Shown: piece after piece, positions 24,836 to 36,028 of the stretch
How positions within the stretch are numbered: the first letter of the stretch is position 1
How the letters are laid out: each line of letters starts with the position of its first letter
Assembly: GCA_021811585.1 (NCBI GenBank)
Contig: JAJZOG010000015.1
Location: 1-36,028, forward strand
Origin: a bacterium
GTDB lineage: Bacteria > Patescibacteriota > Doudnabacteria > UBA920 > VMFF01
DNA length: 36,028 bases
Direction: 5' to 3'
Notes under the pieces: generated by a model
Databases searched by the model: none
The model's input: only the letters and a program-made list of their open reading frames with translations
Told to the model about the DNA's origin: nothing
Position numbers and translations under genes: made by a program

Positions 24836-26062
24836 ATGTTAAAAATAACCGGCATTATTCTGCTTATTATATCTTTAGCCCTGGCGGTTTTTGTTTTCTA
24901 TCGCAATAATCCCAGGTCTTCGGAGCCGATAATTTTTTCACCGCGGGAGATTTTGGGCGGCACCTGGCACGCTTATAAATTGAATTATATCGAGGCGTCC
25001 ACAGGCAGAACCGCGGATTTTTCCAAGGGCAATATCAGCACTTCCGAAGCCGAAAGTTATGCCATGCTCCGTTCGGTATGGTGGGATGACCAAAACACGT
25101 TTAACCAAAGCTGGTCCTGGACGCAGAAATTTCTCCAGCATAAAAATGACCATTTATTTTCCTGGCTTTACGGCCAAGAGCCTGGTGGCAGTTACGGCGT
25201 ATTAACCGCGCAAAGCGGGCAGAACAGCGCCAGCGATGCGGATGAGGATATTGCTTTGGCTCTGCTGTTTGCAAGCAAAAGATGGGGCAATGTTGCGTAT
25301 GAAAATGACGCGCGCGCAATCATCCAAGATATTTGGAGCAAAGAAGTCGCCGTGATCCGCGGGCAGCCGTATTTGCTTGCTAACAATATCGAGAAAACTT
25401 CCGGCAAGCAGGATTACATAATGGACCCTTCTTATTTTGCGCCGTACGAATATAGGATTTTCGCGAAAATCGATCCAGCCGACAATTGGAACGGGCTTGT
25501 AGATACCTCGTATCAGGTTCTTGAAAACAGCGCAAAAATGAATCTGGGCTACGGCAGTTCGGACGGGCTTCCGCCGGACTGGATCTTAATTAATAAAAAT
25601 ACGGGTGCGCTTGTGCGCGCCCAAAACCAGAGTTTGGATTCAAATTACGGCTACGATGCCCTGCGCATTCCTTTCCGTTTGGCATTGGACTGGTCTTGGT
25701 TCAAAGACCCGCGCGATAAGCAGGTGCTTGCCGGCTTTTCATTCCTAAATGGGCAATGGCAGGCAAACCATTCTTTATATGCCGATTATGCCCACGACGG
25801 TTCGGTTGTGCAAACGCAGGAAATACCCGCAATGTACGGCGGTGCCATAGCGTATTTTATGCTTGAGCATCCGAACGAGGCCAAGCAGGTATACGCAAGC
25901 AAGCTTGCATCGCTTTATAATCCGGACACGCTTTCCTGGGCTTCCACGCTAAGCTATTACGACGACAATTGGGCATGGTTTGGGATCGGGCTTTACAATA
26001 ATTACCTTATCAATTTGTATGGCGCAGGCAGCAGCGCAGGCAGCAGCTCAGGCAGCAGTTAA
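24836..26062 (+). CDS. Glycoside hydrolase family 8 (endoglucanase/BcsZ-like), membrane-anchored
   Basis: ARSV-type region ISTSEAESYAMLRSVWWDDQNTFNQSWSWTQKFL, ASDADEDIALALLFASKRWG, N-terminal TM; Ser/Gly repeat tail. Confidence 0.88.
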   Translation: MLKITGIILLIISLALAVFVFYRNNPRSSEPIIFSPREILGGTWHAYKLNYIEASTGRTADFSKGNISTSEAESYAMLRSVWWDDQNTFNQSWSWTQKFLQHKNDHLFSWLYGQEPGGSYGVLTAQSGQNSASDADEDIALALLFASKRWGNVAYENDARAIIQDIWSKEVAVIRGQPYLLANNIEKTSGKQDYIMDPSYFAPYEYRIFAKIDPADNWNGLVDTSYQVLENSAKMNLGYGSSDGLPPDWILINKNTGALVRAQNQSLDSNYGYDALRIPFRLALDWSWFKDPRDKQVLAGFSFLNGQWQANHSLYADYAHDGSVVQTQEIPAMYGGAIAYFMLEHPNEAKQVYASKLASLYNPDTLSWASTLSYYDDNWAWFGIGLYNNYLINLYGAGSSAGSSSGSS

Positions 26063-27658: not shown

Positions 27659-29278
27659 ATGTTCAGCCAATACGTCAATCAATATATAAGCAGAGTGAAA
27701 GTGCGGATCTCCAGGGACAAATTTTCCAGAGAAGAGCTTGAGTACGAAGAAGACCGCGTCCAGGCCCCTGGGTTGAAGAAGAAGTGGTTTGCGCGAAAGG
27801 GCGCGGTCTTCGCTTTTATATTTTTTTTGATGGCCTTTTGCGGAGCGTTTTCGTATTTCGGCTTGATGGGCCAGAGCTTGCGGCTGGATGAGGCGCAAAG
27901 CATGTGGCAGACGCGCGAAACGCCCCGGGCCATGCTGAATACCATCGCGCAGGACGTGCACGTGCCGCTTTATCATTTAATTTTGCATTATTGGCAGGTA
28001 TTTTTTGGGAATTCCGTTGCCGTTGACCGTTCTCTTTCGTTGATATTTTTTCTGCTGACCATCCCGGCGGCGTACATGCTCGGCAAAGCCGCCTTTGGTG
28101 AAAAGGTCGGAATTTTTACGGCATCCCTCGTGGCGCTTTCTCCGTTTTTAAATTGGTACGGGAGTGAGATACGCATGTACAGCATGCTTTTATTTTTTTG
28201 CGTTTTGAACCAATATTTTTTTGTGAAGATTTTTAGCGCCAAGCCGGAGCACCGGCGCAAAGGCGGCGCATGGGCGGGGTATTTTATCACCGGGCTGCTT
28301 GGAATTTTTGTGCATTACTTTTTTTGGCTTCAGATTTTGGCGCAAGCGGTTTTCTTTTTTTTGAACCGCGCGGAATTTCCGAAAAAGTCGCTGTCTAAAT
28401 TTATCGGCATCACAGTTTTTTATATCCTGGCGCTTTCGCCGTGGCTGTATTATGTTTTTAAGCTCGGGTTTGCCGCGAATACTCAGCCGCTTTTGCCAAG
28501 GCCCACGAGCGTGGATCTGTTTAATACGTTTTCGCAGTTTGTGTACGGATTTCAGGACAATGCCATAAATACGGTTTTCGTTTCTTTGTGGCCGATCGCG
28601 GTTCTGTTTGCATTTTTCTCATTGCGCAGGGATCGGCGGACTGCCGAGCGCCGGAAATTTCCAACCTACGGCGGATATTTTTTATTGGCTTCGTTTTTGC
28701 CGGTTATCCTTGCTTTTGTCGTGAGCTTTGTGATTAAGCCGGTTTACCTGCCGCGCTATTTAATTTTTGCCGTGCCGCCTTTGTATGTTTTTGTGGTTTG
28801 GCTTTTGTTTTCGAAATACCCGCGGCGGCTTTCCATCGCCATAGCTTCACTTCTGGTTTTGATAATGTCCGCAGGTTTGGTGAACCAAACAGTTTCCGCG
28901 GCCACCCCGGTGAAGGAAAATTATAAACAGGTGAGCGCCTATTTGGACGCGCATGCCGCACCCTCGGACATAATTGCAGTAGCAGCACCTTTCACAATTT
29001 ATCCCGTGGAATATTACTACAAAGGAGATTGCCAGATCGTCACTTTGCCAATATGGGACAGGTATGCGCACGGCCCGATTCCCGCGTTCGATGCGTCTAA
29101 ATTGCCTTCGCAAATTTCAGAGATAGCCGCGGGGCACACGGACATCTGGCTGGTTTTGAGCTATGACCAGGGCTATAATTCCAAAATTAAATTTTATTTA
29201 GACACCCATTTCCAACGGTTGTATGACCAGGGTTTTTCGCAAGGACTGAGTTTGATGGAGTATAAGGTGAGGTATTAG
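27659..29278 (+). CDS. PMT/GT39-like lipid-linked-sugar glycosyltransferase, multi-TM
   Basis: LRLDEAQSMWQT, QDVHVPLYHLILHYWQVFFGNS, multiple TM helices. Confidence 0.82.
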   Translation: MFSQYVNQYISRVKVRISRDKFSREELEYEEDRVQAPGLKKKWFARKGAVFAFIFFLMAFCGAFSYFGLMGQSLRLDEAQSMWQTRETPRAMLNTIAQDVHVPLYHLILHYWQVFFGNSVAVDRSLSLIFFLLTIPAAYMLGKAAFGEKVGIFTASLVALSPFLNWYGSEIRMYSMLLFFCVLNQYFFVKIFSAKPEHRRKGGAWAGYFITGLLGIFVHYFFWLQILAQAVFFFLNRAEFPKKSLSKFIGITVFYILALSPWLYYVFKLGFAANTQPLLPRPTSVDLFNTFSQFVYGFQDNAINTVFVSLWPIAVLFAFFSLRRDRRTAERRKFPTYGGYFLLASFLPVILAFVVSFVIKPVYLPRYLIFAVPPLYVFVVWLLFSKYPRRLSIAIASLLVLIMSAGLVNQTVSAATPVKENYKQVSAYLDAHAAPSDIIAVAAPFTIYPVEYYYKGDCQIVTLPIWDRYAHGPIPAFDASKLPSQISEIAAGHTDIWLVLSYDQGYNSKIKFYLDTHFQRLYDQGFSQGLSLMEYKVRY

Positions 29279-29328
29279 GGTCCAACCCAAACCCCCAACC
29301 TAATACCCCAATCTAAACCCCTAATCTA
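29278..29328 (+). repeat. C-rich telomere-like repeat, left copy
   Basis: gggtccaacccaaacccccaacctaataccccaatctaaacccctaatctag; first 40 nt identical to 35902-35941. Confidence 0.95.
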
Positions 29329-29412
29329 GCTTTGTCTCAAACAATTAATTAAAACTTAATGGCATTTGAGTATGTATATTTAGAAGGTACATGAATATTA
29401 ATTTCTAAATAT

Positions 29413-29997
29413 ATGTCTTTTGCTCGGAAATTTAAACCCAATGCGATTTACCATGTATATAATCGCGGAAATAATAAGAGACAGTGCTTTTTTATGCCGT
29501 CCGATTATATTTATTTCATGCAAAAATTAAAAAAATGTTTACTGTCAGAGCAAAAATGCTCTTTGCTTTTTTATTGTTTGATGCCCAATCATTATCATTT
29601 GGCTTTCAAAGCCGAAAAAGGCCTTGACATAAGCAAAATTATGCAGCGTTTAGTGGTTAGCTATACGCAAATGCATAATGCCAAATATAAGCACGCCGGA
29701 CATGTTTTTCAAAGTAAATACAAAAGTAGATTGGTAGAAGATGATGATTATTTTATTTATCTCTCAAAATACATCCATTGCAATCCAGCAAAATTTACCA
29801 ATCCATATGAATACAAATATTCCTCGATAAAGGAATACATAAATGCCAGCAAAGGATGTTGTGATACCAGGCCTTTGCTGGCATTATTCAATTTTTCTAA
29901 TAACGAATATTTGGATTTTCTCAGAGGACGTATTCCCAAACAAAACGAAACTTTGGAGAAAATATTAAAAGAATCTTTATTAGATGATATCTTTTAG
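29413..29997 (+). CDS. Y1 (HUH) transposase, REP-associated tyrosine transposase / IS200-like family
   Basis: YHVYNRGNNKRQCFF; CLMPNHYHLAFKAEKGLDISKIMQRLVVSYTQMHNAKYKHAGHVFQSKYKSRLVEDDDYFIYLSKYIHCNPAKF. Confidence 0.93.
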   Translation: MSFARKFKPNAIYHVYNRGNNKRQCFFMPSDYIYFMQKLKKCLLSEQKCSLLFYCLMPNHYHLAFKAEKGLDISKIMQRLVVSYTQMHNAKYKHAGHVFQSKYKSRLVEDDDYFIYLSKYIHCNPAKFTNPYEYKYSSIKEYINASKGCCDTRPLLALFNFSNNEYLDFLRGRIPKQNETLEKILKESLLDDIF

Positions 29998-30030
29998 TTC
30001 AGGTTTTCGATGATTTTTTAAATCCCGATT

Positions 30031-30082
30031 TTAGATTGGGGGTTTGGATCAGGGGTTTAGGTTGGGGGTTTGGGTTGGACCC
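30031..30082 (-). repeat. C-rich telomere-like repeat, right (inverted) copy
   Basis: ttagattgggggtttggatcaggggtttaggttgggggtttgggttggaccc; reverse complement shares its first 26 nt with the left copy. Confidence 0.9.
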
Positions 30083-32193
30083 TACCACTTCGCGTTTTGA
30101 GCCAACCCCAGCGCGTAGTCGGGCCAGAATGTTCCGGCCGAAGGGCCGCCGTTACATGTGCCGTCGGACGATCCGGGCTCTTTTACCCAGAGGAACGCGT
30201 CCACAAGCGGGTTGCCTGTGTCTGTTGTTGGCAAATATCCAAGCGCCATCCCGGACGGGTTGCACCACTGTCCATTCGAACCATTCCCGTTCCTGCTCCT
30301 ATCAATTACGGCACGCTTCCCGGAAATTCCGTACTGCGATTGTAAAGCCGAAACAATCTGCCCGGCATAATCTATATTTTGCTGGTCAGTATAAAAGTTT
30401 GAAACATTCAGCGAAAACCCATCCGCGCCTGCCACATCCGCCCGCGCCAAATTAGCCGCTGCCTGTTGCGGCGTAAGCCAGTCCGGATGCCCGATGTCCA
30501 GGTACACCGCTGTGTTTGGATTTTGTTTGAAACGGCTTACCGCATAAGAAATTAATTGGAATCTTTGCGCGAGCTGGTCAGCGCTCAAGCAGCTGGTCAG
30601 TGCCAGCGCATCCGGTTCCACGATTACCGCCGCGCGCCGCGCACCTATCGCATTGGCAAAATCATTCACTTCACTTTCGTAATTGGTGCTGTCCGTGCCG
30701 CCCGCGGAATACTGGCCGCAATCGCGGTAAGGTATATCGTAAAGAACCATTACCGGCATTGCGCCCGCGTCTGCCGCGTTTGTCACATAATTATTTACAG
30801 CATCGTAGATATTGCTAATCCAATCTTTGGAAAACCAAGCCGCAGTGGAACCGTCGGCGATTTTTTGCATCAGCGAAATATCGTAAGATCCCGCGCTATT
30901 GTTGTTGCGAATCCAGTTTGCTGCATCGCTATTCGGATCAACCCAAAGTTTTTGTCCACTGAAAAGATTTTGCGATGTTGCGGTTGTGGAATTTGAGGTT
31001 GATGATGATATGGGCGTTGTTGTATTTGATGTCGTTGAGGAAGTGGTTGTTGGTGTTGAGGTTGGTGTTGAGGAAGATGTTGTGGTTGTTGTTGAGGAAG
31101 ATGTATTTGATGGTGATGAGGATGTTGATGTTGTCGTTGAGGAAGGCGTTGTGGTTGATGTTGAGGATGGTGTGGTGGTTGATGTTGCTTGAGGTGTTGT
31201 GGTTGATGTTGAGGATGGTGTTGCGGTTGATGTTGAGGATGGTGTTGCGGTTGATGTTGCCTGCGTTGTTGCTGTTGTTGCGGTTGCTGTTGCGCTGCCG
31301 CCAACCATGATCTGCACAGATGCCTGCGCAATTTCATTCCCGCTCAGATCCTTGGCAACAAACGTGATTGTGTATGGTCCGCTGCCTTTCCATGTCCATC
31401 CGCTGAAATCAATGTTCGCTATTTTTACTTGTTGGCCGCTTGCGGTTTGTCCGTCTGCCATGGAATTAAGTTGGCTGGTATCAACTTGCCAATACATTTG
31501 ATAATTATTGAGCGGCATGCCGGCAACTTGCGCTTGTAATTGTTCTGAACCGGAAACTGTGGTGTTGTTTTGCGGCCAGGTAATATTAACCGAAGGGGCT
31601 GGTGCTGGCGAAGGTGCGGCTGAAACAGTTCCGTATTCGGGCAAGCCGTTTGCAACGGTAATTGCAACTGATTTTTCGCTGAGTACGTTGCTATTGAAAT
31701 CCTCAGCCACAAAATTAATGTTATACGGCCCACTGCCTTTCCATGTCCATCCGCTGAAATCCACCGAGGTTTCCTTATGCGGATATCCATTATAGTTGCT
31801 CGGCATGTAATTTAACTGTCCGCTGTCAACCTGCCAGAACATATTGTATTGATCAACCGAAACGTTTTCAAGCATTGCTTTGAACGGCTGGGTTCCGGAC
31901 ATTGGCTGGGTGCTTACCGGCCACCAAATATCTATTGTTTGCGCGTAAGCGTCGGCTTTGTTCACGCCGAAAGCCGCGGTGCTAAAAGATGCGTTGCCGG
32001 AAGATGCGTTGCCGGAAGCCACGTTGCCAAAACCCATCATGCCGAAAGCTGCGGTGCCAATTGCGCCAAGCGGCGCAAATGAAATGCCGGTTATCATCGC
32101 TACTGCCGCGAATATTGAAAACGCGCGTTTGCTGATAAATTTGTCCAGCTGTTTGCTGCCGGATCTTTTGTTCTCAGAATTGCTCTTGTACAT
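30082..32193 (-). CDS. Secreted glycoside hydrolase family 6 cellulase with two Ig-like modules and Ser/Thr linker
   Basis: LWVDPNSDAANWI, VLYDIPYRDCGQYSAGG, AAVIVEPDALALTSCL, AVYLDIGHPDWL, FSLNVSNFYT, RAVIDRSRNGNG, FLWVKEPGSSDGTC; duplicated (V)DFSGWTWKGSGPYxIxFVA modules; signal-like N-terminus. Confidence 0.93.
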   Translation of the reverse strand: MYKSNSENKRSGSKQLDKFISKRAFSIFAAVAMITGISFAPLGAIGTAAFGMMGFGNVASGNASSGNASFSTAAFGVNKADAYAQTIDIWWPVSTQPMSGTQPFKAMLENVSVDQYNMFWQVDSGQLNYMPSNYNGYPHKETSVDFSGWTWKGSGPYNINFVAEDFNSNVLSEKSVAITVANGLPEYGTVSAAPSPAPAPSVNITWPQNNTTVSGSEQLQAQVAGMPLNNYQMYWQVDTSQLNSMADGQTASGQQVKIANIDFSGWTWKGSGPYTITFVAKDLSGNEIAQASVQIMVGGSATATATTATTQATSTATPSSTSTATPSSTSTTTPQATSTTTPSSTSTTTPSSTTTSTSSSPSNTSSSTTTTTSSSTPTSTPTTTSSTTSNTTTPISSSTSNSTTATSQNLFSGQKLWVDPNSDAANWIRNNNSAGSYDISLMQKIADGSTAAWFSKDWISNIYDAVNNYVTNAADAGAMPVMVLYDIPYRDCGQYSAGGTDSTNYESEVNDFANAIGARRAAVIVEPDALALTSCLSADQLAQRFQLISYAVSRFKQNPNTAVYLDIGHPDWLTPQQAAANLARADVAGADGFSLNVSNFYTDQQNIDYAGQIVSALQSQYGISGKRAVIDRSRNGNGSNGQWCNPSGMALGYLPTTDTGNPLVDAFLWVKEPGSSDGTCNGGPSAGTFWPDYALGLAQNAKW

Positions 32194-35901: not shown

Positions 35902-35961
35902 GGGTCCAACCCAAACCCCCAACCTAATACCCCAATCTAAAACCCTAATCCAGGGTTTTTT
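35902..35961 (+). repeat. C-rich telomere-like repeat, third copy, ending in a terminator-like hairpin
   Basis: gggtccaacccaaacccccaacctaataccccaatctaaaaccctaatccagggtttttt; AAAACCCT-aatcc-AGGGTTTTTT at 35939-35961. Confidence 0.92.
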
Positions 35962-36016
35962 GTTAAGTATTTAAGAAGAAGTTAATAAAAAGTCCTTTAA
36001 AAGTGCATTATTTTTT

Positions 36017-36028
36017 AGGTTAGGGTTT
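36017..36028 (-). repeat. Probable start of a fourth, inverted copy, cut by the window end
   Basis: aggttagggttt at the last bases; reverse complement aaaccctaacct resembles the C-rich repeat. Confidence 0.45.

Follow-up and report, generated by a model that had tools for sequence, protein, structure and literature searches.

Y1 transposase genes enclosed by long terminal inverted repeats, and accompanied by moderately abundant families of the same ends, are described as TIRYTs and TIRtrons by De Nocera et al. 2013 (PMC3733652), and Quentin et al. 2018 (PMC6006769) place most TIRYTs in subclass 2.1, with the motifs NH[YF]H, FQ and Y[IV]H.NP. A GGGGWSAS motif is common to some, but not all, TIRYT/TIRtron repeats. 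By the account in PMC8266576, it is not settled how repeats of the REP type are propagated, and tnpA-REP genes have not been shown to be mobile.

The element reported here is a variant of the known TIRtron type, which is thereby extended to the reduced genome of a candidate phylum: a RAYT-like Y1 gene lies within long terminal inverted repeats that bear no relation to GTAG REPs, and the same ends are dispersed in the genome as singles, dimers and clusters in moderate abundance. It departs from that type in that GGGGWSAS is absent from its ends (the three matches in the window all lie outside the element), in that its arms are arrays of 13-nt G-rich units with a mini-hairpin at the tip, and in that it is accompanied by complete miniature elements whose target is directional and lies at start codons. 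The conserved tip mini-hairpin, the 13-nt array and the CATAY-targeted miniature elements are not described in the accessible parts of PMC3733652 or PMC6006769.

The locus also resembles the REPtrons and REPINs, as exemplified by E. coli TnpA-REP (4er8), which gave the best structural match: there is one chromosomal Y1 gene, there are many dispersed ends in inverted pairs, and the ends bear a short hairpin. Unlike those of REPtrons, the tips have no GTAG/GTGG foot (a variable sequence precedes them), the elements are 178-194 bp long with long complementary arms, the NCBIfam RAYT cut-off was missed, and the stem is of 4 bp; stems of 5 bp are found in Marinomonas REPs (PMC8266576).

The Y1 element and its transposase

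The window, that is, the whole stretch of 36,028 nucleotides analysed, is contig C2 of a host genome of 748,701 bp in 19 contigs, ~91% complete. The Y1 element extends tip to tip over 805 bp (positions 29278..30082, plus strand), with exact tips on both sides and inverted arms, its exact boundaries being putative and read from copies in one genome; it was the sole full-length match in the host genome and the sole transposase-bearing copy. The left tip, GGGTCCAACCC (29278..29288, plus strand), has a 4-bp stem GGGT/ACCC and a loop CCA, and the right tip (30072..30082, minus strand) is an exact match to GGGTCCAACCC. Both arms keep a 13-nt register: the left arm (29284..29322, plus strand; its G-rich strand is the minus strand) is composed of the three 13-nt units AACCCAAACCCCC AACCTAATACCCC AATCTAAACCCCT, and the right arm (30038..30076, minus strand; its G-rich strand is the plus strand) of the three units AACCCAAACCCCC AACCTAAACCCCT GATCCAAACCCCC, read inward from the right tip. 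Along 65 nt (29264-29328 and 30032-30096) the inverted arms were 83% complementary, and their aligned 53-nt core showed 89% identity.

The original prediction of a Y1 reading frame between inverted C/G-rich repeats was confirmed by these exact tips and complementary arms. The G-strand sequence that it quoted is present on the minus strand of the left arm, and the self-complementary GGGT-cca-ACCC that it placed at the termini was found at both tips; it also suggested that the ends may be other than classic REP hairpins, and no GTAG REP palindromes occur at the tips. No Rfam family matched at the Y1 locus. The TAG stop codons of the convergent neighbour genes (29276-29278 and 30082-30084) share their final G with the terminal G of the element tips. 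Between positions 24836 and 32193 of the window, genes for GH8, a cellulose-synthase-like GT2, PMT_2 and GH6 are grouped as a cellulose-type polysaccharide cluster in this candidate-phylum genome.

The Y1/HUH transposase gene (29413..29997, plus strand, 194 aa) was recognised by Pfam, conserved residues and fold. The reading frame matched Pfam Y1_Tnp (PF01797) with an E-value of 8.5e-13 and 48.9 bits, for a cut-off of 23, and the Y1 motifs N59-H60-Y-H62 (HUH) and Y120-IHCNP were located, with H60, H62, Y120, N124 and P125 invariant across 48 homologs. By homology, Y120 is the predicted catalytic tyrosine; Y84 was considered for this role and dropped, as the published class-2 motif Y...NP points to Y120. 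An AlphaFold model of the protein (pLDDT 91) had as its top PDB fold match 4er8, E. coli TnpA-REP with a REP hairpin (E 6.7e-7), followed by ISDra2 and then IS608; the matches were by fold only, the sequence-profile search of the PDB with this protein giving no match. The HUH motif, the predicted catalytic tyrosine and the Y1_Tnp fold place the protein in the Y1/HUH superfamily. Its motifs agree with the published table for subclass 2.1, to which it is likened by motifs alone, and its score against the NCBIfam RAYT equivalog NF047646 (48.9 bits) was below the cut-off of 80.

Dispersed ends and miniature elements

The exact tip GGGTCCAACCC occurred 31 times in the 748,701-bp genome, compared with once for a reversed-pattern control, and at most once per genome in 60 relatives. 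The host genome carries one Y1 gene, and the combination typical of RAYTs and REPtrons, a single Y1 gene with dispersed cognate repeats, was thus present, with 31 exact tips. The tie between the repeat family and Y1 that had been foreseen was borne out by these counts, and the finding named beforehand as speaking against it, repeats unrelated to Y1, did not come about.

The tips bound about 11 gene-less elements of 178-194 bp, many of them as inward tip pairs: five of a 178-bp type (six with one whose two parts are on contigs C14 and C17), three of 181 bp and a single one of 194 bp, with two further elements cut at contig ends. At 35902..36028 of the window (plus strand) lies the left part of a gene-less element of 178 bp, truncated after 127 nt where the contig stops; it carries the third exact tip of the window, and its sequence is the same as in the complete copies C13:8333-8510 and C6:9847-10024. 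Contigs C2, C14 and C17 break off 119-127 nt into 178-bp elements, which makes the copy count a lower bound, and the end of C14 and the start of C17 are probably adjacent in the genome. Copies within a size class were 97-99% alike and the complete ones differed by 1-6 nt, suggesting that the spread of the miniature elements was recent. Some copies sit between convergent genes. For two complete miniature elements, the predicted fold of the single strand was a long hairpin that pairs left with right (z -10.1 and -8.6). Exact GGGTCCAACCCAAWMCCCC had no match in genome and viral contig collections, from which records very near the host genome may be absent.

Other arrangements of the ends were also observed. 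At C14:50939-51030 a solo right end is followed by tandem 27-bp units, GGGGGTTTGGGTTGGACCC-TACTGCAT, with a complete tip in each. Larger inward pairs of ends surround a prepilin-like gene (C14:46438-47309) and a methyltransferase-like ORF together with a 6-phosphogluconolactonase gene (C7:13341-15993); these two pairs were considered as possible composite elements that had captured genes, but, with unlike arms and a second copy absent, they may instead be independent insertions.

Insertion sites

The orientation of each element was assigned by the similarity of its arm and core to the transposase element, independently of the flanks. The flank was exactly CATAY at 6 of 12 left ends and at none of the 10 right ends; for the left flanks the binomial P against local frequency was 7.7e-15, and none of 3000 random flank sets equalled the observed CATAY count. 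The remaining left ends (6/12) comprise that of the transposase copy, with the flank GGTATTA, and five others. No target duplication common to the flanks was seen when occupied sites alone were compared, and sampling at species level yielded no empty site in a sister strain.

On the complementary strand CATAY reads RTATG, and at each of the six sites it corresponds to the start codon of a gene that is transcribed outward from the left end. The products of these genes are SmpB, an EF-Tu/EF-G-type GTPase (BipA-like), a T2SS-F family protein, an M3 peptidase, a tRNA-binding domain protein and that of a short ORF; in a seventh case the left end lies directly against the ATG of a phosphoglucose isomerase-like gene. 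In SmpB, the tRNA-binding protein and the EF-like GTPase, the Pfam match sets in at residues 4-9, and, as judged from the predicted proteins, genuine genes start at the CATAY sites. At two left flanks (C17:8619 and C7:23114) the RTATG target is contained in 12 nt that are duplicated in tandem, which is seen on the left-end side alone, the duplications at these sites being GTATGCAAAGAC GTATGCAAAG and GTATGACGACCC GTATGACCAG.

That the six CATAY sites and the further left end at an ATG all adjoin start codons would also be expected if there were no target preference and random insertions survived before start codons, since the tip would give a usable ribosome-binding context (GGACCC-RT-ATG); in a compact genome, insertions within genes would be lost. 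However, six of these seven ends have exactly two bases before the ATG, all six of them RT, whereas RT preceded ATG in 19% of the ordinary long ORFs (30 of 157; ~5e-5 for 6/6), and the right ends have no such pattern. The survival of harmless insertions alone is therefore insufficient for the motif, and we consider random insertion quite unlikely, although much of the start-codon position may be due to survival.

The reading that we regard as probable is that of a TIRtron/REPtron-like Y1 transposon, whose one Y1 mobilises miniature non-autonomous elements by directional, site-specific single-strand insertion. The Y1 would most likely recognise the minimal hairpin GGGT-CCA-ACCC at the tips on single-stranded DNA, with the iterated 13-nt arms assisting recognition, and would cut exactly at the tips; the element would be inserted 3' of the CATAY pentamer in one orientation and with no target duplication, as IS200/IS605 enzymes do, and the empty C10 site is expected as TTTTTTCATAC joined to TTATTTTG. 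Since the complement of CATAY is RTATG and gene-breaking insertions are lost, survivors would cluster just upstream of start codons. We infer that the miniature elements are moved by this Y1, that the substrate is single-stranded and where the cuts fall; the 13-nt arms may act as binding sites or in left-right annealing. Because the family has exact ends, near-identical copies of recent origin, a single candidate enzyme (194 residues) and a directional target of five bases, it yields base-by-base predictions of cleavage and insertion that are testable in vitro.

The locus shares with IS200/IS605 elements (IS608, ISDra2) the HUH/Y1 fold and, from occupied sites only, insertion 3' of a short fixed one-sided sequence with no target duplication. 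It differs from them in its single-copy gene, with no tnpB seen inside the element, in its class-2 tyrosine motif (YIHCNP) and in its hairpin, which lies at the very tip and is not subterminal; a guide sequence was not identified, inspection by eye having revealed no convincing complement of CATAY beside the hairpins, as in IS608-type guides. For IS200/IS605 elements, a preference for the lagging strand is expected; here the orientations were 7 vs 6 relative to GC skew, with no bias to either the lagging or the leading strand.

Gene-less elements of 70-300 bp with inverted repeats are also typical of bacterial MITEs, and the miniature elements could be ordinary MITEs of a DDE-type transposase whose gene the assembly lacks, with the Y1 gene between two of their ends by coincidence. 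DDE elements typically have inverted repeats that are long and perfect; another transposase could be missing because the assembly is 91% complete, and contigs break inside elements. Nevertheless, the elements are tied to a Y1 and not to a DDE transposase by several observations: the Y1 copy has the same ends, tip to tip, related Y1 genes in other genomes have their own form of the tip on either side, together with cognate repeat families, no target duplication was seen, and the target motif is one-sided and directional. An origin as DDE-type MITEs is thus very unlikely.

If the start-codon targeting of the favoured Y1 reading is true, the elements become 5' leaders of housekeeping genes. The repeats might even be host regulatory modules now (5' leader elements), kept by selection and no longer mobile DNA, as elements lie directly upstream of the smpB, BipA-like GTPase and T2SS-F protein genes, and in other families REPs have documented physiological functions in the host (PMC8266576). 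We find this highly unlikely, since near-identical copies at unrelated genes and the copies between convergent genes point to recent spread, and scans of two miniature elements for outward promoters and terminators gave results no better than shuffles.

Arms, tips and related Y1 loci

Every arm (29/29) could be parsed as GGGTCC followed by two to five 13-nt units, RAYYYRAWMCCCY; the 29 arms contained 93 units of 17 kinds, and the 13-nt register was kept without a single slip. The repeat unit had been proposed to be a heptamer, which was not the case. The two-unit arm pattern was found 51 times in the host genome and never in the 60 relatives, all of which lacked G-rich arms.

The proposal that the ends are recognised as G-quadruplexes of the G-rich strand, replacing REP hairpins, held in part as to potential: the arms had the highest G4Hunter score in the window (~+/-1.96 per 25 nt), and every right arm contained four G3 tracts when loops of up to 12 nt were allowed. 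Against it, the strict G3N1-7 motif was present in only one of nine full elements, and four of nine left arms did not reach four G3 tracts even when loops could be as long as 12 nt, so that four tracts at both ends in all copies, as in a G-quadruplex-ended element, were not found. G-run length was not maintained beyond column composition (column-shuffle test, P 0.27), the array is absent from relatives with the same tip type, the nearest one included, and the unslipping 13-nt register better suits protein binding or unit-wise recombination. A G-quadruplex is possible in the longer right arms, but is not needed at both ends, and as the common recognition feature we hold it to be most improbable. 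Nor are the ends an alternative to hairpins, as had been suggested, for the tip is itself a minimal hairpin, compensated at other Y1 loci and amplified in two genomes.

A broader scenario for this Patescibacteria Y1 lineage, in which a 4-bp tip is all that is left of the REP hairpin, recognition has moved to the iterated 13-nt G-rich array (as protein-bound iterons or as a folded G-strand) and miniature elements have spread into the RT-ATG starts of housekeeping genes, with their arms as mRNA leaders, seems to us unlikely as a whole. The preferred reading, recognition of the tip hairpin by its Y1, can be set beside the ends of other Y1 genes. Compensated forms of the GGGT-CCA-ACCC hairpin were found at other Y1 loci (AGGT-TCA-ACCT, AGGT-CSG-ACCT and GGGT-CSG-ACCC), and RGGT-NNN-ACCY tips occurred on both sides of 6 distinct Y1 loci of ~105 and never in shuffled flanks. 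Numerous further Y1 loci in the order had ordinary longer palindromes. The closest Y1 (~41% identity), from a Candidatus Doudnabacteria of the same GTDB family, which makes the host too a probable member of the Doudnabacteria (Patescibacteria), is flanked by inverted repeats of 56-68 bp with the tip AGGT-TCA-ACCT; no further copies of its ends were found in that genome, and the G-rich array is absent from them. In the tree, the window Y1 joined the Doudnabacteria Y1 weakly (SH-aLRT 80). Tip type required at least several changes on the Y1 tree, and common ancestry of the tip is therefore not supported; the tip hairpins are shown to have changed along with their Y1 genes.

The two genomes with amplified tips were CG2_30_37_16 (L110), with 13 copies of GGGTCSGACCC vs 1 in the control, and the Patescibacteria genome L099 (G061, ~600 kb), with 143 copies of AGGTCSGACCT vs 1 in the control. 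The 143 hairpins of the latter are arranged in REPIN-like groups, making it unusually repeat-dense for a reduced genome.
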